Shown here one piece after another: positions 2,038-15,678 of a stretch of DNA of 37,159 bases. This stretch comes from a virus: the IMG/VR virus record IMGVR_UViG_3300031251_000955, positions 1 through 37,159 of that record, one strand, 5' to 3'. The first letter of the stretch is position 1; each line of letters begins with the position of its first letter. Both the position numbers and the translations under genes were made by a program. The notes beneath the pieces were generated by a model, which saw nothing but the letters and a program-made list of their open reading frames with translations, made no database searches and had not been told where the DNA came from.

Positions 2038-3011
2038 ATTGCGCATCGCGTCATTCTCGGATATTGGTCATGTAATGCGCCATCAAGCAATCGACCGGCT
2101 TTCTTTTTGCCAACACGATCCATCCACAGATCGCCGTCGTAATATCCGGTGCCGTTTGTGCTCTTGTAATCGGCAGTCTCTGGCCATGCTGGCATTTCAC
2201 CCTCAAGCCACTCGCCCCATTGCTTAAACAAAAATGGTACGTCTGCTGACTTGCATTGATCGCGCAGTGATTTTGCCCACGCAGGGTACATCGGCCTTGC
2301 GTCTTTGCCAGACTCACCGCCAACAACAACCCAGTCAAGACCATTGCCATTTTGTACGACGCGCACGCCGTTATGATCTGGCCATTGTTCAAAGTACATT
2401 TCTAAATTAATCGAACCGAGCAGGGGTTCTGCACTTATCCACCGAACTGCTGCTGGCGTTTCAAGCAACAACGGTATGCGCTCGTCAGCTGCTTTTTGAT
2501 CTTCAACACTGACACCGAGCCATACGTTTGAAAGCGGCCACGGTCGGTTGACCACGTAAGTTTGAGCAGTATCTCCATCCTCAACCATGTCTCCTGCGCG
2601 GTCGCCAATGTTCACGCGAGTCCAAGGATTCAACAAATACTGACGCATTCTTTCAGGTCGTTTTGTCAAAATTTGAAACGTGTGACGCTCAGAAAGCGCC
2701 ATCACAGCAAACACCTTGTCGACGTAATCATCCGGCACATTCTCATGGAACAGATCGCTCATGCTGTTCACGAAGATGCGGCGCGGTCGTTGCCAGCGTA
2801 GCGGTTCATCGAGTTTTTCCGGTACCAGTGTGATCTCGCCATTCCACTGACCACCTTTTGCGATCAATCCCTCATAGGGCATTCCTTCACCACTGAAACG
2901 CTTAGCGGTAGTTTCTGCATAGCAATTCCTGCATCCTTCGCTTACGCGTGAGCAGCCGCGGATTGGATTCCATGTAGCATCAGTCCATTCAATTCCAGTT
3001 TTATCAGCCAT
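2034..3011 (-). CDS. Phage Gp37/Gp68 family protein (DUF5131)
   Basis: The protein starts MADKTGIEWTDATWNPIRGC and shows the cysteine motif GCSRVSEGCRNCYAE (C-x5-C-x2-C). Further on are FVNSMSDLFHENVP, QILTKRPERM and the WISAEPLLG and GGESG motifs characteristic of DUF5131. The family has a radical-SAM-like arrangement of cysteines and is proposed to be metal-binding, but its reaction is not established. It is about 325 residues, full length for the family. I chose the start at 3011 rather than the upstream ATG at 3053 because homology begins at MADK; it then overlaps the end of the reverse transcriptase gene by eight bases. It lies directly downstream of the DGR in the same operon. Confidence 0.85.
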   Translation of the reverse strand: MADKTGIEWTDATWNPIRGCSRVSEGCRNCYAETTAKRFSGEGMPYEGLIAKGGQWNGEITLVPEKLDEPLRWQRPRRIFVNSMSDLFHENVPDDYVDKVFAVMALSERHTFQILTKRPERMRQYLLNPWTRVNIGDRAGDMVEDGDTAQTYVVNRPWPLSNVWLGVSVEDQKAADERIPLLLETPAAVRWISAEPLLGSINLEMYFEQWPDHNGVRVVQNGNGLDWVVVGGESGKDARPMYPAWAKSLRDQCKSADVPFLFKQWGEWLEGEMPAWPETADYKSTNGTGYYDGDLWMDRVGKKKAGRLLDGALHDQYPRMTRCAI

Positions 3012-4437
3012 TCTTTTTTCCTCGCTTTCTAAAAGCCTTTGTGTATAACCCATTCACTGCATGGCCGCGTTGCCAGATCGCCTTCACCAATCGTTTGCGA
3101 TCGTTGTAGCTGTGGCTGCTTTGCCTTACCAAACCCAAATAACTATTGGAAGTTTCAAACACCTGGTCCGCATCGATATTCTTGATCCGGATGACGGCTT
3201 GCTTTATCACGCGCCTCCGTGTGGTTCTGCGCCATGGCTTGATCACTTGCCCAACAAAATCAACACCACGATCTACCGGCTGCAGGATGGTTTTGGATGG
3301 GTTGAGTTTGACGTTCAATCGCTCTGGCAAAAACGCATCAATCTGTTCCAGCCAGGTGTTGAGCTGTTGGGGTGATTCATGCAGCAATACAAAGTCATCC
3401 ACGTAGCGAATGTAATGCTTCACGCGCAACTGGTGCTTGATGAATTGATCCAGCTGGTTTAAATAAATATTGGCAAAGAATTGGCTACTGAGATTGCCTA
3501 TTGGCAGGCCGTATTCTGCAGACTGCAGCGCCAGTTGTTTGTGTGGCGGTACCAGTGAAAGCAGTTTGCCGCTGCAGCGTAGCTCATAATTCTGGCGCGG
3601 GTCGTGCAATAGAATTAAATCTGTGAGCTCACGCCACCAAGGCTCGGTTACTTTTTCATGGATGAGTTTCTGCAGGATCGGTTTATCAATGCTGACAAAG
3701 AAGTTTGCCAGATCACATTTTAAATAATGCGCAGGCTTGCTCCAGTTGTGTGTGATGCTGCGAATCTTGCTTTCCAATCGTTGAGCGGCGAACAGTGTGC
3801 CGCGTTCTGGTATGCACGCACAGCTATCGTAAATAAAACTGGCATGGAAGCGTTGTACGATGTGGTTGTAAAGCAGGTGATGCACAATGCGATCACGAAA
3901 ATCTGCAGCCCACACTTCGCGCGGTTTGGGCCGTGTAATCACAAAGCAGATGGATCTGCCCGGCGTGTAAGTGCCGGTATTTAATTCATCGTAGAGTTTC
4001 GCCAGATTGGCTTCGAGGTTGAGCTCAAAGGCAAGGGCGGTGGTGCTGTTGCGTTTTGATTTGCGACAATCAAAATAGGCTTGCACCAGTTGTTCAAATA
4101 AAAAATCAGCATGGCACTTAACAGGTGCATCAAAAAGACAAAGTTGATCTGCGAACGGCACGAGCTCTGTTCGTATTGTCCTTGTGGTCGTTGTTCTGGT
4201 TACCATCTTCAAAGTTCTGGACATACGCGTAATCGGAAGAGTTCTGCGCCTTGTTGTGCTATCGACATCAACAGAGCGAAGGCGAGGCCGATCACTCTGC
4301 AGACTTGGCTCATCCTGAGCTGCTGGCGGTGGCATCGATACAGCAGATGCCAGCGGCACAACCAGATTAAAAAACGCACAGGCATGATAGCCGTAACCGT
4401 CATGCAGCGGGCGCTGCTTTTGCATTTGCTTCTTCAC
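3004..4437 (-). CDS. DGR reverse transcriptase
   Basis: This enzyme copies the template-repeat RNA into adenine-mutagenised cDNA. RT motifs are clear: CDLANFFVSID (catalytic Asp near 242 in this numbering), GLPIGNLSSQFFANIYLNQLD (the DGR version of the QGxxxSP motif) and YVDDFVLL (catalytic Asp pair near 347-348). They are followed by NPSKT and a thumb region. Coordinates give the longest open frame. The first about 92 residues are read through the end of avd and the TR, and are low-complexity and RT-unlike. No methionine codon occurs after the TR, so the true start is either a GTG at 4161 (385 residues, the usual DGR RT size) or an ATG in or before the TR. The stop overlaps the DUF5131 start by eight bases. 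Confidence 0.95.
   Translation of the reverse strand: MKKQMQKQRPLHDGYGYHACAFFNLVVPLASAVSMPPPAAQDEPSLQSDRPRLRSVDVDSTTRRRTLPITRMSRTLKMVTRTTTTRTIRTELVPFADQLCLFDAPVKCHADFLFEQLVQAYFDCRKSKRNSTTALAFELNLEANLAKLYDELNTGTYTPGRSICFVITRPKPREVWAADFRDRIVHHLLYNHIVQRFHASFIYDSCACIPERGTLFAAQRLESKIRSITHNWSKPAHYLKCDLANFFVSIDKPILQKLIHEKVTEPWWRELTDLILLHDPRQNYELRCSGKLLSLVPPHKQLALQSAEYGLPIGNLSSQFFANIYLNQLDQFIKHQLRVKHYIRYVDDFVLLHESPQQLNTWLEQIDAFLPERLNVKLNPSKTILQPVDRGVDFVGQVIKPWRRTTRRRVIKQAVIRIKNIDADQVFETSNSYLGLVRQSSHSYNDRKRLVKAIWQRGHAVNGLYTKAFRKRGKKNG
4147..4248 (-). repeat. DGR template repeat (TR)
   Basis: This 102-bp non-coding template lies between avd and the RT core, the canonical DGR position. Read on the minus strand in the VR frame it encodes a series rich in AAC/AAT codons (QNSSDYAY..., NQNNDHKDNTN). 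AAY codons cannot mutate to stop codons at their adenines. It contains 33 coding-strand adenines, 18 of which differ in at least one VR. The last 23 bp (4147-4169) are identical in all VRs and correspond to the initiation-of-mutagenic-homing (IMH) region. Homology stops exactly after CTGCG on the plus strand (4244-4248) and before position 4147. No GC-rich hairpin follows the TR. Confidence 0.96.
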
Positions 4438-4771
4438 TCTGTTTCTTCCAACCTTGACCTTGTTTACTTACGCTGGTGGTGACTTCAATCGCTGCTGCAT
4501 ACTTCTTTACATCAATCCAGCGCTTATCCTTTGCTACACGGAGTAACACTTCGATTACTTGTATGCGTTCCAGCAACTGTTCAAGATGCGGCACCTTATC
4601 GCGCGCAATGTTGGCTCTCATAATCAGAGTCATCAATTCCGTGCATTCAGTGCGAATCGTTTCACCCACAGTGCGTTTAAAATCACGCGGAAAATTCTGC
4701 GTAACATCAATTGCCATGCCTAATAGATCGTAGGCAGCTTTATAAATAACCAATTCATGGTGGAGTGCCAT
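4400..4771 (-). CDS. avd: DGR accessory variability determinant (Avd, four-helix bundle)
   Basis: The 123-residue basic, all-helical protein starts MALHHELVIYKAAYDLLGM and includes NFPRDFKRTVGETIRTECTE, the pattern of Avd/23S-rRNA-IVP-like four-helix bundle proteins. Avd forms a barrel-shaped pentamer that binds the RT and template RNA and is needed for mutagenic cDNA synthesis. Its position, directly upstream of the TR and RT and downstream of a target gene, is canonical. The C-terminal tail (KKQSEEANAKAAPAA) is probably disordered. The ATG lies 16 bases after the VR1 hairpin and has only a weak ribosome binding site, so expression may depend on coupling or on readthrough from the target gene. 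Confidence 0.92.
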   Translation of the reverse strand: MALHHELVIYKAAYDLLGMAIDVTQNFPRDFKRTVGETIRTECTELMTLIMRANIARDKVPHLEQLLERIQVIEVLLRVAKDKRWIDVKKYAAAIEVTTSVSKQGQGWKKQSEEANAKAAPAA

Positions 4772-4787
4772 GCTGAAAAAACTCGCG

Positions 4788-4804
4788 AGGGCGCTACGCG
4801 CCCT
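4788..4804 (-). other. DNA/RNA hairpin downstream of VR1
   Basis: AGGGCGC-TAC-GCGCCCT is a perfect 7-bp inverted repeat with a 3-base loop, 32 bp beyond the end of VR1 and between the target gene stop and the avd start. Known DGRs need a hairpin or cruciform downstream of the VR for efficient homing. Similar hairpins follow VR2 and VR3 but not the TR. No T-tract follows on the coding strand, so a terminator is unlikely. Confidence 0.85.
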
Positions 4805-4822
4805 GTTTAAATTGTTAAATTA

Positions 4823-5665
4823 CTAAATGACCGATAATCTGCGAACGGCACGAGCTCTGCTCGTATTGACCTTGGGGTCGCCGTACTGGAAACCATCTTC
4901 AAAGAACTGGACATACGCGTAATCGGAAGAGTTCTGCGTGCTTGTCCAATACCAATCGCTTTGCACAAATTGATCCTGGCAATTGACATAGCACATCCGT
5001 GCTTCTTTGCGTGCGGGTAGATACCAGTCTTTATGGCCATCAATTTCCAGTGCAAGAATTTGTTTAGCGAGATCACTTCCATTTTCTGCCATGGCTTTGG
5101 TATTGATCATGCCGTCACCATCGCTGTCGGCATCTTTAATTTTTTTGCCAGCGCATCCCCATTTGACATCCTTGAATGATCCAAGGTCATCGGGTGCAAT
5201 GATCAGGTGATAATCTTTTTCACCGTTGTAGCCGCGCATCAAGCCTGCATAGATGCCGCCTTGTGCTGGCCACATAGTGCCAATGCAGGGTAGGTTTGTT
5301 TTCTGTTGCGCATTGCCAATGTAAAGCATGGCGTTCACCAAACGGCTATCGATGCGTTCATTGCGCTGGTGCAGCATCATGGCAAAGTTCGCCAGATCCA
5401 CGGTGTCGCCTTTGCTGGTGAGTTGTTGTAACAGCAGCTCGTGCAAATGTTCTTTACTGCATTGCTCCATATCATTCCAGCCGGTGCGGCCTTTTACTTC
5501 GCGCGCGAATTTCATTTTTTCACGCATAGCTGCAGCAAAAGTATTCACTGCCTGGTCGTCCGGATGCTTGTTAATTTCCGCCAGCATAATTTCCATAACA
5601 TCATTTGCTGCCATGGATACGCTGGCCTTCCCAATTTTGACTGTGACATCTTTTGCTGCTTTCAT
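4823..5665 (-). CDS. DGR target protein 1 with DUF1566/C-lectin-like C-terminus
   Basis: This is the largest of the three diversified proteins, about 280 residues. The N-terminal 115 residues are helical (MKAAKDVTVKIGKASVSM...). They are followed by a DUF1566/Lcl_C-like domain with GGIYAGLMRG, the acidic DADSDGDGM loop, KDWYLPARKEARM and WYWTSTQNSSD. The C-terminal 34 residues are VR1 and end in RARAVRRLSVI, the conserved DGR target ending. I chose the ATG at 5665 because GGAG precedes it at good spacing; an ATG at 5680 lacks this. There is no signal peptide or membrane segment, so the product is cytosolic or virion-borne. A neighbouring hairpin and avd follow directly. Confidence 0.9.
   Translation of the reverse strand: MKAAKDVTVKIGKASVSMAANDVMEIMLAEINKHPDDQAVNTFAAAMREKMKFAREVKGRTGWNDMEQCSKEHLHELLLQQLTSKGDTVDLANFAMMLHQRNERIDSRLVNAMLYIGNAQQKTNLPCIGTMWPAQGGIYAGLMRGYNGEKDYHLIIAPDDLGSFKDVKWGCAGKKIKDADSDGDGMINTKAMAENGSDLAKQILALEIDGHKDWYLPARKEARMCYVNCQDQFVQSDWYWTSTQNSSDYAYVQFFEDGFQYGDPKVNTSRARAVRRLSVI
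4837..4938 (-). repeat. DGR variable repeat VR1
   Basis: This 102-bp copy of the TR sits at the 3' end of the target 1 gene. It differs from the TR at 10 positions, all TR adenines on the coding strand. AAC codons of the template have become TTC (Phe), TAC (Tyr), GGC (Gly) and others, with the invariant AAG Lys retained. The 23-bp IMH end is unchanged. Confidence 0.96.
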
Positions 5666-5692
5666 GATCGTGATCTCCAAAAAAATCCGAAA

Positions 5693-5708
5693 GGGCGCTG
5701 GTGCGCCC
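5693..5708 (-). other. DNA/RNA hairpin downstream of VR2
   Basis: GGGCGC-TGGT-GCGCCC is a 6-bp inverted repeat with a 4-base loop, 32 bp beyond the end of VR2 and just before the ribosome binding site of target 1. The spacing from the VR matches the VR1 hairpin. It is followed by an A/T-rich stretch and GGAGA, a layout that recurs upstream of the ParB-like gene. Confidence 0.8.
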
Positions 5709-5723
5709 CATCAAATGGTTAAA

Positions 5724-6329
5724 TTACTCAATGACTAATAATCTGCGAACGGCACGAGCTCTGTGCGTATTGCCCTTGTGGGCGAAGCCCTGGGTACCAT
5801 CTGCAAAGTACTGGACATACGCGGAATCGGAAGAGTACTGCGTCGAACTCCAGTACCATGCTGCTTCAAAGGCTTCTGCGCCACCTTCCTTGAATGCTTC
5901 TACTGTTGTTTGTGCGGGGCTTTCTTCTGTGTATGGGTAACCTGCAGGAATACTGCTGGCATTGTCACCATCACGGAAGCTGCAATAGTTTTTATAGGCC
6001 GTTGGTTTGAAATTTCTGTGCGCCATTTCTTGTTCATCACGACTCCATAGATACCAGTCATCCAGATCTGCGATGCGTAGTGCGCGAATTTTTTGCGCAA
6101 GCCCGCTGCCATTGGAGGCCATCGCATCTGTATTTGCCAAGCCATCGTTACAGCTGCTGGCATCAATCTTGTCGCCATAGCCACCATATTCACCTTCAAG
6201 ATCGCCTTCTGCTTTTGGTGAAATGATCGATGCGTATGTATCGTTGCCGATACGGAATAAACTATTGTAGAAACCGCCGCCGAGTGGTGCGCCGATGGCG
6301 GGCAGTTCTGATTTGCGGATTGTGTTCAT
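5724..6329 (-). CDS. DGR target protein 2, DUF1566-like
   Basis: The protein is about 201 residues and starts MNTIRKSELPAIGAPLGGGF. It has a DUF1566-like body: GNDTYASIISP, DDWYLWSRDEQEMA, then an insertion and AWYWSSTQYSSDS. It ends in VR2 (RARAVRRLLVIE). I chose the ATG at 6329 because AGGAGAACACGCC precedes it; the frame is open for 17 more codons upstream but without a good site. An almost identical leader (CCACCACACYAGGAGAACAC) precedes the internal ATG of target 3, showing that the two genes are duplicated cassettes. No signal peptide is visible. It is a paralogue of targets 1 and 3, with the most heavily mutated VR. Confidence 0.9.
   Translation of the reverse strand: MNTIRKSELPAIGAPLGGGFYNSLFRIGNDTYASIISPKAEGDLEGEYGGYGDKIDASSCNDGLANTDAMASNGSGLAQKIRALRIADLDDWYLWSRDEQEMAHRNFKPTAYKNYCSFRDGDNASSIPAGYPYTEESPAQTTVEAFKEGGAEAFEAAWYWSSTQYSSDSAYVQYFADGTQGFAHKGNTHRARAVRRLLVIE
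5741..5842 (-). repeat. DGR variable repeat VR2
   Basis: This 102-bp TR copy sits at the 3' end of the target 2 gene. It has 12 differences from the TR, the most of the three, all at TR adenines of the coding strand. Substitutions include Asn to Tyr, Gly, Phe, His and Thr and Asp to Ala or Gly. The IMH end is identical to the TR. Confidence 0.96.
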
Positions 6330-6384
6330 GGCGTGTTCTCCTAGTGTGGTGGTTAAAAATGGCGGGGCGAACCCCGCCATGTGA

Positions 6385-6738
6385 TTACTGTGCTGGTGAT
6401 GTTGCTGCTGCGCTCGTTGTGTCTGAGCTTTGGGTATCTGCTGAATTTGCAGTTACATCTACTGCGGGAGAAGCTGTAGTTGTATCAGTGCTGGTATCTG
6501 TAACGGCTACAACTGGTTGCGCTACTGCATCGCAATCAATTGCATCAGCGGGTCGCGCATTTACATTCGCAAGTACGCGAACAGCATTAACGGGAAGAAC
6601 CGTTTTTAAGTCGCCTTCGCCAACCTGGACCAAGTCTGTTTTTTCACAATTTAAAAACTGCTCTTCGTCGTTCGTGAACGATTTAATTTCGCCAAAAAGG
6701 CGAGTGTTGTCTCGTGTATCAATTACTAACATTTTCAT
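6385..6738 (-). CDS. Hypothetical protein with Ala/Thr/Ser-rich tail
   Basis: The 117-residue protein has a compact N-terminal half (MKMLVIDTRDNTRLFGEIKS ... LKTVLPVNAVRVLANV) that looks like a small beta-rich domain. The low-complexity tail of Thr, Ser, Asp and Ala (about 72-117) is probably disordered. It lies between the ParB-like gene and target 2 in the same operon. I do not recognise the family. The N-terminal half recalls small anti-restriction or Sm-fold-like phage proteins only loosely. A plausible ribosome binding site (AGGAAAAAT) precedes the ATG at 6738. Confidence 0.55.
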   Translation of the reverse strand: MKMLVIDTRDNTRLFGEIKSFTNDEEQFLNCEKTDLVQVGEGDLKTVLPVNAVRVLANVNARPADAIDCDAVAQPVVAVTDTSTDTTTASPAVDVTANSADTQSSDTTSAAATSPAQ

Positions 6739-6799
6739 GATATTTTTCCTATGTAAAGGTTGATGAATACCGGCGCTACCCGGCGGTTAAGCACTGAAA

Positions 6800-8539
6800 T
6801 TATTTCGACTCAAAGCCTTCCGGAATCCATGTGGGGTTTTTGGTTTTGATCAGTTCTTCCACTTTGGCTACTAACTGCCCTTTGTTGGATTTGCTGACAG
6901 TCATTTTCCAATCGCCTTCTGGGTCGTCATGGAATTTGGCACCAAGCTCTGCCAGTTGGTTTTTATTGAGCCACTTGTAAAAATTTTCAGCGGTTGGGTT
7001 GTAATATTCATTCCACTTGATTTGCATGAGTTTGATGACCGACTCGGTGAGATCGTTATTATGGTCAGGGTCATTGGAGAACAGGGCTACATGCATTAAG
7101 TTGGAAGCGCAGAACGCAAACAGTTGTTGTTTATAGTTGCTGTCCAAGTTGCGGAATTTTTCAAACGCTGCAGCAAGGTCTTCATCTTTCCAGCTCATTT
7201 TTAGGCTATCGTAATGCTCGCAATATTTTTGACCTGCAATTGATTCAGTGGCGGGCAAATCAAGTCCCATGCCGAAACTCATGGTGAGGGTGCTGTCATC
7301 GGCATCACCAAGGATCTGATTGCAAATACTAAAAATAAACAAGTCTCTCGCAAGTTCTGGGTCGTATGCCAGGTGCAATCGCGCAATGGTTTCGCGCGCA
7401 TTTCGCAGATCTGTTTTCAGGCTCTGTGAAAGATCAATACTTTCATCTTCGACTGGTTTGGCTGTTTCGACTTCTTCTGTGTCAGTGTCCGGTTTTTTGG
7501 CAGCGGCCTTTTTAGAGGGTTTATTTAACAGTTTGTTGAGTTCGGCCTTATCTTCCTTTTTCACGAGGCCTTTGGTGATACCCAGTTTTCCGCCGTGATC
7601 AACGAACAGAATGCAGCCAGCCAGTTTCATTTGCGCCGCATTAAATGTTTTATCATCACCATGGCCTTTGCCATCCAGGTGAAAGTGATCATGCTCTAGC
7701 TTGTGATCGCGTTTGATTACTTTATCTGCCCACTTCCAGCCTTCGGCCAGAATCTTTTCTGACTGCTTGCTGAGTTTTTCAATAGCTAGGCGGTTCAGCA
7801 ATTCATCATCAGTGATGTAAAAAACATTATCACCAAATAGATCCTCGGTGCTGGATCCGCCCGCTGCCTGATACGCTTTCAATGTTACAAACTTCACCAA
7901 GTCACTATCATTGGTGATGCGGGATTCTTTCAGGTTGTCGCGTATCTCACCTGGTTCCAGATATTCCACGTCGCCTTTTACTTTTTTCCAAACCGCCATT
8001 TGTTTTTTCTGATCGGGCTGGGTGGTGAATTCCTTCACATGATCCAGATTTATTTTTCCATCCTTGTATGCCTGCAGGATGTCGGGATGCACGGCGGCCA
8101 TGCCAAGGCGTTGTTTAACGTGCTTAACCGTGATGCCATAGCGTGCAGCTACTTCATCCTCGGTGAGTTTTGATTCGTTGATCAATTTTGTAAATGCTTC
8201 AAACTCTTCTGCAGGGTGCATATTGAGCCGCACCGTATTGGCGATATATGAAGTTTCTTCCGCGCTATCGGGTTCAACCACTTTGCAATCAACGGTATTT
8301 GTGGCTTTAAAATGGTTTTCTTTTACCAGTTGTAGCAATGCCTTGCGGCGACGTTCACCATCAACAACCTCATACATCCCTTTTTGTTTTTTAGATGGTT
8401 CGACAAGTAAATTAAGGAGCGTGTCATGCTCGCGAATTGATGCAACCAGCTCTGCATCGGCTTGGGGATTTGATTTTACTTTGCGCACGTTTTTTGGTGA
8501 TGCAATGAGTTTGTTAATTTGTATGGCTTTAATGGTCAT
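6800..8539 (-). CDS. ParB/RepB/Spo0J-type nuclease-domain protein
   Basis: This is a 579-residue protein. The N-terminal ParB domain (about 1-110) has IQINKLIASPKNVRK, the VVDGERRRKAL box (61-65 GERRR) and NTVRLNMHPAEE. It is followed by a KorB-like helix-turn-helix (about 127-147, EVAARYGITVKHVKQRLGMA). A Lys/Glu-rich linker near 345-370 leads into a C-terminal region that I do not recognise. ParB-family proteins bind DNA at specific sites, and the domain can bind CTP. No ParA partner is present, so a partition role is doubtful; phage relatives are more likely DNA-binding regulators or nucleases. The gene sits between two DGR target cassettes, directly after the VR3 hairpin. Confidence 0.85.
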   Translation of the reverse strand: MTIKAIQINKLIASPKNVRKVKSNPQADAELVASIREHDTLLNLLVEPSKKQKGMYEVVDGERRRKALLQLVKENHFKATNTVDCKVVEPDSAEETSYIANTVRLNMHPAEEFEAFTKLINESKLTEDEVAARYGITVKHVKQRLGMAAVHPDILQAYKDGKINLDHVKEFTTQPDQKKQMAVWKKVKGDVEYLEPGEIRDNLKESRITNDSDLVKFVTLKAYQAAGGSSTEDLFGDNVFYITDDELLNRLAIEKLSKQSEKILAEGWKWADKVIKRDHKLEHDHFHLDGKGHGDDKTFNAAQMKLAGCILFVDHGGKLGITKGLVKKEDKAELNKLLNKPSKKAAAKKPDTDTEEVETAKPVEDESIDLSQSLKTDLRNARETIARLHLAYDPELARDLFIFSICNQILGDADDSTLTMSFGMGLDLPATESIAGQKYCEHYDSLKMSWKDEDLAAAFEKFRNLDSNYKQQLFAFCASNLMHVALFSNDPDHNNDLTESVIKLMQIKWNEYYNPTAENFYKWLNKNQLAELGAKFHDDPEGDWKMTVSKSNKGQLVAKVEELIKTKNPTWIPEGFESK

Positions 8540-8562
8540 GGTGCTCTCCTAAAAAAATCTGA

Positions 8563-8582
8563 AAGGGCGCGGGTGCGCCCTT
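8563..8582 (-). other. DNA/RNA hairpin downstream of VR3
   Basis: AAGGGCGC-GGGT-GCGCCCTT is a perfect 8-bp inverted repeat with a 4-base loop, 28 bp beyond the end of VR3 and between the target 3 stop and the ParB-like gene. It is the longest of the three VR-associated hairpins and shares the core GGGCGC/GCGCCC. Confidence 0.85.
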
Positions 8583-8596
8583 AAATTGTTAAATAA

Positions 8597-9208
8597 CTAA
8601 ATGATTGATAATCTGCGAACGGCACGAGCTCTGCTCGTATTGTCCTTGAGGGCGTCGTCCTGGTTACCACCTTCAAAGTTCTGGACATACGCGTAACCGG
8701 AAGAGTTCTGCGTGCGTAACCAGTACCAGCCGTTGTATTCACGTGAGCTTCCGGTGTTTTTAGAATCCAGTGCGGCTTCTGCGCGTGATGGCAATTGCGC
8801 GCCATCACCTAAACTCTCTGCCCATTTCATGGCTTCATTCCATGTGAGAGGTTCATCGTTGGGTGGGGTTGCGTCCAGTGCGATTAGGAAAGCGTCTGGC
8901 TCTCCGTTCTCTCCGCGCGCGATTCCTTTGAATTCGCCGCCGTGCATTTTGGTGCCGATTGCTGCTAGTTCATTAATGTTCATGATGTGTTCTCCTGGTG
9001 TGGTGGTAGGTGATGTAGAAATAAAATGTTTTTTAATTAATTCACAAGCGGTTACGGCAATGCCGTTACCGCGCATGAATGCGGTTATGCGTAGCCACTC
9101 CAGTGCTTCATCTGGTGTGGCTACGCCTTCCTTAATTTTTTTTGCCAGCAATCTTTCGGGGGCGATTGTGTCTGGCAAGCCGTCATAGCTCGCTGCTTCG
9201 GTGTTCAT
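8597..9208 (-). CDS. DGR target protein 3, possibly two cistrons fused in frame
   Basis: The open frame of 203 residues joins a helical N-terminal segment (1-62, MNTEAASYDGLPDTIAPERL...) to a DUF1566-like target. The target begins at an internal ATG (codon 76, position 8983) and ends in VR3 (GWYWLRTQNSSGYAYV ... RARAVRRLSII). The internal ATG is preceded by AGGAGAACACATC, nearly identical to the target 2 leader. Either a 128-residue target is translated separately or a fusion is made, or both. The upstream ATG at 9208 also has a good site (AGGAATTTTTA). The DUF1566 part is shorter than in targets 1 and 2. No signal peptide or membrane segment is present. Confidence 0.88.
   Translation of the reverse strand: MNTEAASYDGLPDTIAPERLLAKKIKEGVATPDEALEWLRITAFMRGNGIAVTACELIKKHFISTSPTTTPGEHIMNINELAAIGTKMHGGEFKGIARGENGEPDAFLIALDATPPNDEPLTWNEAMKWAESLGDGAQLPSRAEAALDSKNTGSSREYNGWYWLRTQNSSGYAYVQNFEGGNQDDALKDNTSRARAVRRLSII
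8611..8712 (-). repeat. DGR variable repeat VR3
   Basis: This 102-bp TR copy at the 3' end of target 3 has only 7 differences from the TR, all at TR adenines of the coding strand. On the coding strand these are mostly A-to-G transitions. It is the VR closest to the template and so either the most recently reset or the least edited copy. Confidence 0.96.
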
Positions 9209-12691: not shown

Positions 12692-13540
12692 ATGTCGCAG
12701 CCGAATCGTTGGCAATGGAACGAGCATGAAGATGCGGCTCTGCATGAATTGCAGAACCACCATGCGGCCATTCTGTATTTGCGCGGCTTACGCAAGCATA
12801 TGGATTACGACACAGGATTGGTGGGTGTGCGACGCCGTATTTCGTTGCGCATGTTTGTGGAGCTTTTAGAGGAGCGGCGTGATCCAGGGAGTCCATTGCC
12901 TTGCTATGTGCCATCAATCGCATCTATTCGGTGGTGCCTTGATAGACTTGAAAAAGTTGGGTTGATTCGGCGCATGGAAAAAACACATCGTCTTGCTCCG
13001 ATGGTATTTGAACTGCCATTGGCCACTATCGGAATAATGAATAAACCGCAACAACAAGAGCTACAGCAAATAGCTACAGCAATAGATTTAACAAATAATA
13101 TCGATAAAAACAGTACCGACCAGAATAGCTACAACAAAGAGGTACAACAAGAGCTACATCAAAACCAAAAATATCCAGCATGCCCACATAAAGAATTATT
13201 GGCACTTTGGCGAGAGGCTATGAAGGGTAAAAAGGTGCCTGTGCCAAAAGAAGGATATTGGGAACCCAAGCGCAAGGGTTACCGCGATTTATCTGCCCGC
13301 TGGACAGAAGGTTTCAAGCGCGTGAACAGCGAAACTAAACTGCCGATATACATGGATAAAGAAAGTGGAATTAAGATAGCCACCATGGCAGGTGCATTGA
13401 AGTGGTGGGAAGGATTTTTTAATTACTGTGCAAAATCCACTTTTCTGACAACGGAATGTCGTGCGTTTGATCTCGACTGGGCAGTGAATTACGAAAACTT
13501 TAGAAAAATAATCCAGGGGAATTACATTGACAAGCAATAA
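12692..13540 (+). CDS. Replication initiator-like protein (lambda O-like)
   Basis: This 282-residue protein is probably the phage replication initiator. The N-terminal part (about 1-115) contains a winged-helix-like region (RRRISLRMFVELLEERRDPG ... IRWCLDRLEKVGLIRRME). A Gln/Asn-rich linker (about 118-160) follows, encoded by direct DNA repeats. The C-terminal domain ends DLDWAVNYENFRKIIQGNYI, a pattern seen in phage O/DnaD-type replication proteins. It directly precedes and overlaps the DnaB helicase gene. As in lambda O, the initiator gene contains iterons inside its own coding sequence, so the origin is probably internal. The exact family is not certain. Confidence 0.75.
   Translation: MSQPNRWQWNEHEDAALHELQNHHAAILYLRGLRKHMDYDTGLVGVRRRISLRMFVELLEERRDPGSPLPCYVPSIASIRWCLDRLEKVGLIRRMEKTHRLAPMVFELPLATIGIMNKPQQQELQQIATAIDLTNNIDKNSTDQNSYNKEVQQELHQNQKYPACPHKELLALWREAMKGKKVPVPKEGYWEPKRKGYRDLSARWTEGFKRVNSETKLPIYMDKESGIKIATMAGALKWWEGFFNYCAKSTFLTTECRAFDLDWAVNYENFRKIIQGNYIDKQ
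13059..13162 (+). repeat. Iteron cluster A, putative replication origin inside the initiator gene
   Basis: Five direct repeats with consensus AGCTACAGCAA start at 13059, 13072, 13127, 13140 and 13152. Two lie on the left and three on the right of an A/T-rich 44-bp spacer. Spacing within groups is 12-13 bp. The arrangement resembles lambda ori inside O. A second, non-coding copy of the whole arrangement lies at 15359-15475. Confidence 0.72.
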
Positions 13541-14936
13541 TGAACTGCCGCAAACATTGCGCGGGTTAAAAACCCCGCCACATAGTTTAGAGGCGGAACA
13601 ATCCGTGATTGGTGCGGCCATGCTCGATAACGATTGCATTGCCGATCTAATTGCCGAGGGTTTTTCTGCAGAATATTTTTATCACCCGCAGCATCGCACT
13701 ATCTGGAAAGCGGTTGAAGAGCTGGCTAACAAAGGTTGGGCGTGCGACTTGATAACGCTATCGGAGCGGATGGATGGATCTGAACTGCAAAACGCTGGTG
13801 GGCTGGCTTATCTGGCTGAGATTGCACGTAATACGCCGAGCGTAAGTAATGCCAAAGCCTATGCAAAAATAATTTGTGATCGTCACCGGCAACGTCGCTG
13901 GTTGCTTTGTGCGCAACAAATGTCAACTACTATCTATGATGATTCTATTCGGGATCATCAGGAAAAAATGGAAATCATTGATTCATTGATAACTGCAATG
14001 GTAGAAGCGGAACGAAGTAATACACAATTTGCGCTTAACGACTCATTGAAAATATTGCTGGATGATATTGATTTTAAATATCACAACCCCGGCATTCATG
14101 GGTTATTAACCGGCTTCAAGCATCTGGATCATCGACTGAACGGAATGCAGCCTGGTGATCTGGTCGTTATTGCAGGCAGGCCTGCGATGGGTAAAACCAC
14201 CGTGATGACAAACATTGCTGTCAACATGGCGCGTGCAAAACATGCAGGAATTATTTTTAGCCTTGAAATGCCGCACAAAAAACTTACACAGCGAATGGTT
14301 TCCGGTGCGGGAAAGGTAAAGATTGGCTTGCTACAAAGTGCCAAAGTTCAGGATATGGATGGCCAATGGGACAAGTTGAGTCTGGGTGTGTCGAAGCTGC
14401 GCGATCTTCCGATCGTGTACGACGATCAGGGCGGTCTTTCAGTTCAAGAAATTGCATCACGTACCAAGCGCGAACATCGTCAACGCAAACTCAGTTGGAT
14501 CATGGTTGACCACATTGGTTTGGTGGATAGCCGTCGTCACAAGGATCGCGATGATTTGAATATTGCCGATGTCACGCGCACCTTAAAACGGCTCGCTAAA
14601 GAGCTTGGGATTGTAGTGATTGCATTATCTCAGGTGAATCGAAAATGCGAGGAGCGTAGCAATAAGCGGCCTCGCATGAGTGATTTGTTGGGGAGTTCAG
14701 CAATTGAACAAGACGCCGATGCGGTGCTCATGCTCTATCGCGATAAATACTATGATGAAAATACACAGTATCCAAACCAGTTAGAGATTATTTCTGCCAA
14801 GTTGCGTGACGGCGAGCCTGGTATGGACTTTGTGCATTTCAGCGGTGAATACAATTCGGTTGATGATTGGGCGGAAGGTGCGACACCAGCGCATCGGGGA
14901 TTTTCGGGTAAAAAAGATGATGATGGTTATGAATAG
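13527..14936 (+). CDS. DnaB-type replicative helicase
   Basis: This is a hexameric 5'-3' DNA helicase for phage replication. The 469-residue protein has the DnaB N-terminal domain (about 15-125, HSLEAEQSVIGAAMLDNDCI) and a RecA-like C-terminal domain. Walker A GRPAMGKT is at 217-224 and FSLEMPHKKLTQRM follows. Walker B-like IMVDHIGLV and ALSQVNRKCEERSNKRP come next, then LLGSSAIEQDADAVLMLYRD. All are standard. It starts with TTG at 13527 (SD AGGGGA six bases upstream) and overlaps the initiator gene stop by 14 bases. Having its own helicase means the phage need not hijack the host DnaB. Confidence 0.95.
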   Translation: MTSNNELPQTLRGLKTPPHSLEAEQSVIGAAMLDNDCIADLIAEGFSAEYFYHPQHRTIWKAVEELANKGWACDLITLSERMDGSELQNAGGLAYLAEIARNTPSVSNAKAYAKIICDRHRQRRWLLCAQQMSTTIYDDSIRDHQEKMEIIDSLITAMVEAERSNTQFALNDSLKILLDDIDFKYHNPGIHGLLTGFKHLDHRLNGMQPGDLVVIAGRPAMGKTTVMTNIAVNMARAKHAGIIFSLEMPHKKLTQRMVSGAGKVKIGLLQSAKVQDMDGQWDKLSLGVSKLRDLPIVYDDQGGLSVQEIASRTKREHRQRKLSWIMVDHIGLVDSRRHKDRDDLNIADVTRTLKRLAKELGIVVIALSQVNRKCEERSNKRPRMSDLLGSSAIEQDADAVLMLYRDKYYDENTQYPNQLEIISAKLRDGEPGMDFVHFSGEYNSVDDWAEGATPAHRGFSGKKDDDGYE

Positions 14937-14945
14937 GGGGAAGTT

Positions 14946-15320
14946 ATGAGTGACGTTGCAACAACTGAGCAAAAGATATTGGCATGGGCCGAATGGTCGC
15001 GCAGTAATAATCCGATCAAGGCGCTGGATTATAAATCGCCTTCGCTTGCGCTAATTCGGCAACACATGGGTGGTGGTATACCGCTTCCGTGTATGACGGA
15101 TGATGAAGCGTTGAAAATTGATGCGGCAGTGATGAGATTAAGCATTAAGCAACCGGTTCTTCATCGTGCATTTCTAGCCTATTACTTATACAGAAAATCA
15201 CTGCGCGTGATAGCGAAAGAATTCGGTGATGTGAGTTTCAATTATATGAATGGGCAGATCAAACAAGCTGTGCATTGGATCGATGGCCAATTGGATGGTG
15301 TTGATGTAGATGCCGCGTAA
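14946..15320 (+). CDS. Late-gene antitermination protein, Q type
   Basis: The 124-residue protein has the length and layout of the phage antiterminator Q family: an acidic-basic helical protein with DDEALKIDAAVMRLSIKQPV, FLAYYLYRKSLRVIAKEFG and a C-terminal AVHWIDGQL. Q proteins load on RNA polymerase paused at the late promoter and let it pass the terminator. Consistent with this, a strong promoter and an intrinsic terminator lie just downstream, and the late genes follow. The ribosome binding site GGGGGAAGTT precedes the ATG at 14946. Confidence 0.8.
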   Translation: MSDVATTEQKILAWAEWSRSNNPIKALDYKSPSLALIRQHMGGGIPLPCMTDDEALKIDAAVMRLSIKQPVLHRAFLAYYLYRKSLRVIAKEFGDVSFNYMNGQIKQAVHWIDGQLDGVDVDAA

Positions 15321-15358
15321 CGTGTAAAAAACTGTTGCGGGATTATTCCGTTTTCAGG

Positions 15359-15475
15359 AGCTACAGCAAGAGAACAGCAATAGAGCTACAGCAAAGTAAA
15401 ATAACAAAAAACATCGGTAAAAGTAGTATTTTATTGCATAGCTACAGCACAAGGTACAGCAATGAGCTACAACAT
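15359..15475 (+). repeat. Iteron cluster B, intergenic second copy of the origin-like module
   Basis: Repeats matching AGCTACAGCAA start at 15359, 15384, 15440, 15452 and 15465, with a partial copy at 15371. The distance across the central spacer (second to third full repeat) is 56 bp versus 55 bp in cluster A. A 27-bp spacer segment (15402-15428) matches 13089-13115 at 22 of 27 positions. In the reading register of cluster A this copy has a stop codon. The conservation is therefore of DNA and not protein, pointing to a cis-acting replication or control site. Confidence 0.72.
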
Positions 15476-15560
15476 ACCTCCGAACTATCCGTAAATAATT
15501 ACTTCTACTGCGTAGAAGAGTATGCAACGTTAAACTTCAAAAATAATTATCGTTGACTTG

Positions 15561-15590
15561 TTGACAGTGTGCGCACAGAAGTTATATAAA
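15561..15590 (+). promoter_or_regulatory. Predicted late promoter (pR'-like)
   Basis: TTGACA at 15561-15566 is followed at 16-18 bp by the A/T stretch TATATAAA (15583-15590), a strong sigma-70 promoter. It lies between the Q gene and an intrinsic terminator, as lambda pR' does. The rest of the gap between the Q gene and 15699 holds only iteron cluster B and tR'. Confidence 0.78.
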
Positions 15591-15651
15591 CGTGTCATTG
15601 CTGCGGTTTTGCTGCTCTGGCCAAACCAAACATCCAACAAACATTTCTGAG

Positions 15652-15678
15652 AACCCGTCCATAGCGACGGGTTTTTTT
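15652..15678 (+). terminator. Intrinsic terminator (tR'-like)
   Basis: AACCCGTC-CATAGC-GACGGGTT is a perfect 8-bp stem with a 6-base loop followed by a run of seven T (15672-15678). It stands about 80 bp after the predicted late promoter and before all late genes, so late expression would need antitermination by the Q-like protein. Confidence 0.9.

Follow-up and report, generated by a model that had tools for sequence, protein, structure and literature searches.

A probable complete replication origin outside the initiator gene, and a homologous in-gene iteron array without its right arm, in an IMG/VR provirus

In phage lambda, iterons and adjacent AT-rich DNA lie in the linker-coding part of gene O (PMC3349717). 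The IMG/VR provirus record of 37,159 bp which was analysed here over its whole length (the window) has an initiator gene of lambda-O-like position and layout and carries two iteron modules, one inside this gene (module A) and one about 2.3 kb away, in the gap that separates a Q-like gene from the probable late promoter (module B). The locus raises the question of which module is the replication origin and what the other one does. The earlier note, which drew attention to the two clusters, implied that A was the in-gene origin and B its second copy.

The replication region has the order CI (minus strand), Cro-like, CII (CP76), a small ORF, the initiator gene (12692..13540, plus strand), a gene for a DnaB-type replicative helicase (13527..14936, plus strand; PF03796, 1.7e-75) and the gene for a Q-like antiterminator (14946..15320, plus strand; PF06530, 2e-7; phrog_79). 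The initiator was assigned to phrog_13103 and phrog_5810 (replication initiation protein) and is composed of an N-terminal winged-helix DNA-binding domain, an iteron-encoded linker and a C-terminal domain. The winged helix of the N-domain was predicted with high confidence (AF2 pLDDT >90 over about residues 11-112), and its structure matches were generic, with Z <8. The profile search against solved structures and Foldseek gave only weak winged-helix-like matches for the initiator, none of them initiator-specific. The Q-like gene is followed by a 378-bp gap which contains module B, the probable late promoter pR′ (15561..15590, plus strand; TTGACA at 15561-15566, 18 bp, TATAAA at 15585-15590) and a tR′-like intrinsic terminator (15649..15676, plus strand). 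A spanin-like gene and then the terminase genes lie beyond the gap. The putative pR′ was assigned from its sequence and its location between Q and the terminator, and an automatic promoter scan of the window did not list it. A short palindrome immediately after its −35 element (GTGCGCAC, 15570-15577) is a possible Q-binding element; a counterpart (CTGCATGCAG) follows TTGACA downstream of the Q-like gene in Marinobacter phage AS1 (L044). On the minus strand, the window also harbours a diversity-generating retroelement (3004-9208) with a reverse transcriptase (3004-4437), an Avd-like protein (4400-4771) and an RT-15 RNA match (Rfam RF03018) at 4247-4416. The ends of its three target genes, near 4823, 5724 and 8597, match the template repeat at 4150-4248, and all 29 differences between target and template repeat fall at template adenines.

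Module A (13047-13162, plus strand) lies within the phrog_13103-type initiator gene. Its left iterons (13047..13082) comprise a degenerate copy, CGCAACAACAA at 13046/13047, and full copies at 13059-13069 and 13072-13082; the spacer (13083..13126) is 73% AT, and the right iterons (13127..13162) start at 13127, 13140 and 13152. The iterons and spacer of module B (15359-15475, plus strand) are arranged likewise: the left iterons (15359..15394) start at 15359, 15370 (degenerate, GAGAACAGCAA) and 15384, in relative-like steps of 11 and 14 bp, the spacer (15395..15439) is 78% AT, and the right iterons (15440..15475) start at 15440, 15452 and 15465. In both modules, a spacer of 44-45 bp separates two groups of three iterons. 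Each had been described previously as two repeats, 55-56 bp between repeat starts and then three repeats at 12-13 bp intervals; these spacings hold, but the left group has to be extended by the third, degenerate copy.

With two or fewer mismatches allowed, the window contains 27 copies of the AGCTACAGCAA iteron, whereas 9.8 are expected (maximum 18 in 100 shuffles), and ten of the 27 are the clustered ones, all on the plus strand. A PWM made from the iterons of A only assigns B a cluster score of 65.7, whereas the best of 400 cross-control scans, in which the PWM of one phage was applied to the locus of another, reached 27.7. The local alignment of A with B scored 56, compared with maxima of 33 for 500 Markov shuffles and 23 for 300 other stretches of the window. 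Shuffles, PWM and alignment controls therefore all placed the two clusters far above chance, at the positions where they had been reported. The paralogy of the modules extends to single positions: AGG is found in the middle right iteron of both, and each right group measures 25 bp. The 27-bp spacer segment reported as common to them was found again, with 22 of 27 positions identical, and the iterons are better conserved (50/55) than the spacer (28/46; p = 6e-4). The iterons of A fall in three reading frames and are thus conserved as DNA, not as peptide. This is in agreement with the earlier suggestion of conservation at the DNA level, as is the lack of homology to the C-terminal domain after B.

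When IMG/VR and GTDB genomes were searched directly with the initiator, Q, DnaB and the flanking sulfatase, no close relative was found, so that B is known from a single sequence; the exact last iteron together with the border that follows it, sought in IMG/VR, had no match either. An IMG/VR scan for paired AGCTACARCAA gave 38 stretches, mostly repetitive coding DNA and none recognisably related. Relatives were reached by tblastn, which led to Marinobacter phage AS1 and the Pseudomonas phages BR153a, D14P and AUS531phi; the alignment of these four yielded 80 IMG/VR loci, to which L140 and L141 were added later. After subsampling of near-identical Pseudomonas prophages, 50 loci were analysed. 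In nearly all of the 50, de novo repeat detection located iterons within the initiator gene that exceeded codon-shuffled controls; the exceptions, L122, L128, L129 and L136, were partial or weak. The iteron sequence varies widely (AGGAACCACAC, GGAACAACACA, AAGTGGGCA, AGCTACAACCA and others), and about 50 relatives share a common plan: iterons at 11-14 bp steps, a spacer of 34-70 bp, more iterons and a right arm. Modules A and B both have iterons at 11-14 bp steps flanking a spacer of this length. Two further repeat arrays were also seen, an enlarged in-gene array with 11 copies of GAGGTGGGGCC-like repeats (L112:5845-6114) and ten head-to-tail 10-bp units of AGCTACAGCA which are unrelated to origin modules (L014:2066-2166).

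A natural swap between BR153a and AUS531phi (L051, L054) ties the iteron to the N-terminal domain of the initiator: the C-terminal parts are 96.6% identical, the N-domains only 41%, and the iterons differ. Since both A and B carry the particular iteron of this phage, its initiator very likely binds both, as judged from the shared sequence.

In the relatives the module is single and lies inside the initiator gene. Scanning the loci with their own iteron PWMs, most of them with about 6 kb of downstream sequence (less in some) that should usually span the Q/late-promoter region but is short of the whole genome, revealed no convincing second module in about 50 relatives. Outside the initiator gene the window scored 65.7 and the next locus, L068, 30.7. 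The L068 cluster (8857-8970, minus strand) has module-like spacing but is barely above the cross-control maximum, runs antisense through coding sequence without a border motif, and was therefore not counted. The absence of both clusters from relatives that keep the initiator had been proposed as grounds for rejecting the modules; in fact the module is kept in about 50 initiator-bearing relatives, at the position of A only, and in none at the position of B.

The two modules differ in what follows the last iteron. In nearly all relatives ACCTCCG, or a sequence close to it, comes next, often with TATCCG(G) behind it. In each of 24 dereplicated relatives, the 35 bp of the right arm exceed the gene in AT content (p = 1e-7). 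At B, the border (15476..15491, plus strand) consists of ACCTCCG (15476-15482) and TATCCG (15486-15491). When a 12-nt border PWM was trained with the window excluded, CATACCTCCGAA at 15473, at the end of the last iteron of B, ranked first among 74,296 window positions, and nothing comparable was found after A. The right flank of B gave a summed alignment score to 25 relatives of 287 against 181 +- 13 for shuffles (z = 8.3, reached by 0 of 300 shuffles), whereas that of A gave 176.5 against 178 (z = -0.1). The arms of L065 and L140 both had their best place in the window at the B flank. At B the homology contains gaps and covers only about 50 bp; a profile HMM of the arm missed it, and only the anchored PWM and the pairwise tests detected B. 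The homology continues to about 15525, so that the module does not end at 15475, as had been assumed.

Beyond the border of B lies an AT-rich stretch with a hairpin (15492..15518, plus strand), a candidate unwinding and helicase-loading segment. The hairpin has a 7-bp stem (CTTCTAC-TGC-GTAGAAG, 15502-15518). The L060 group and L140, the most closely related full-length loci in which the DnaB gene is next to the initiator gene, have hairpins at the matching place of the arm (ACTCTCC-TAAA-GGAGAGT and ACTCTAC-TAAA-GTAGAGT, respectively). There is none at A, and many relatives also lack it. The window initiator gene is about 25-45 codons shorter at the arm site than its closest relatives, and only about 5 residues separate its last iteron from the conserved CPH motif, compared with roughly 30-50 in L060 and L140. 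This short distance indicates that the right arm is missing from the window initiator gene. The border and the AT-enriched arm of the family are thus present at B and absent at A, and the complete in-gene origin typical of the relatives is not found here, since A has no arm and B is outside the gene.

The right arm makes B a complete origin by anatomy, and we conclude that module B with its arm (about 15359-15525) probably represents the complete origin, to which the initiator of the phage itself would bind, while A is an auxiliary, regulatory or decaying iteron array; to this joint reading we assign a probability of roughly 0.7. The initiator would occupy both iteron triplets beside the AT-rich spacer, and the right arm, AT-rich and with a hairpin, would open and receive the phage DnaB helicase, so that replication would fire from B. 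Module A would be a paralogous array which apparently can still bind the initiator but has lost its right arm, and it may serve as an auxiliary or regulatory site or represent a former in-gene origin in decay. Because the in-gene position is general among relatives, the simplest history would be a duplication of the origin into the gap between Q and the late promoter, followed by loss of the in-gene arm. The earlier view of an origin-like module present twice, with a second origin as one option, is supported by these data, while its implied ranking of A over B is reversed. The locus resembles lambda in having iterons with adjacent AT-rich DNA and an initiator gene beside helicase functions. 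The single lambda origin, however, is built of four 18-bp iterons with AT-rich DNA to one side of them, whereas 11-bp iterons form two triplets here and the anatomically complete copy is outside the gene. The phrog_13103-type in-gene origins (AS1, BR153a, AUS531phi and IMG/VR L060-L141) are built like B, with iteron groups, spacer, border (ACCTCCG or a variant) and AT-enriched arm, but always as one module inside the initiator gene.

It is unlikely, though conceivable, that A and B are both active origins or cooperate by initiator-mediated looping over the 2.3 kb, since A is without the arm. Good iterons are retained at both, the AT-rich spacers are equally long and duplex stability is low; no difference in stability in favour of B was found, and the spacer of A melts as easily, so that A could still work as an origin. 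The closest described arrangement is that of phage SPP1, whose gp38 binds oriL within gene 38 and the non-coding oriR in the late region, and a fork stalled at initiator-bound oriR has been proposed to switch replication to concatemers (PMC6316719). The two systems share two homologous modules of direct repeats, one in the initiator gene and one in non-coding DNA beside late transcription signals, a DnaB-type phage helicase and, here predicted from the common iteron, one initiator for both sites. In contrast to SPP1, the modules are 2.3 kb and not about 13 kb apart, no separate helicase-loader gene lies between initiator and helicase, and the in-gene copy is without the right arm that relatives retain. 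The AT-rich DUE of SPP1 may have counterparts in the AT-rich spacers of both modules, but the family arm is at B alone.

Extra iteron arrays limit the replication of iteron plasmids, and in the incC/incA arrangement of P1 a second array, incA, which consists of iterons only, lies across the replication genes. Module B has a similar location on the other side of the replication genes and might by analogy be a mere control site for titration or handcuffing, with A as the origin. Lambda iterons without the AT-rich part can indeed belong to an inhibitory element (PMC3349717). Pure titration, however, needs iterons only, whereas B has the spacer segment, border, AT-rich arm and hairpin, and the module without an arm is A, which makes this assignment of roles very unlikely.

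Even less credit can be given to B as a functionless leftover of an older or foreign initiator gene after recombination. B is homologous to DNA that is intragenic elsewhere, and a 73-codon frame starting with TTG (15335-15556) is open across it; the stop codon previously said to prevent B from encoding the same peptide does so only in the frame of the left iterons (TAA, 15397-15399). However, no coding homology flanks B: the FxLPLA motif is absent before it and the C-terminal domain after it, and its iterons, which match array A of the same phage, are better conserved than the spacer. A regulatory role of B at the late promoter, for example as a Q or initiator site timing late transcription, is hardly credible. 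Although the arm of B ends about 45 bp ahead of the probable −35, the same plan occurs in about 50 relatives in initiator genes far from late promoters, and relatives with Q, AS1 and L140 among them, carry no iterons ahead of their late promoter.

If B with its arm is the complete origin, its location allows a wider, doubtful proposal: having separated the origin from the initiator gene, the phage may have placed the arm immediately upstream of the late promoter, so that Q-dependent late transcription, by supercoiling the arm, and replication would regulate one another, with A retained as an initiator-binding governor. Transcription started at the late promoter would leave negative supercoils in the arm of B.

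In lambda-like phages, the in-gene origin forms part of the coding sequence, which locks it to the initiator. In this phage, a complete origin appears to have moved out of the gene, with the old site partly preserved, and the split arrangement allows the contribution of each half of such an origin to be tested. From the grammar of iteron triplets, spacer, triplets, ACCTCCG and AT-rich arm, origins are predicted in about 50 phages that infect Pseudomonas, Marinobacter or uncultured hosts.
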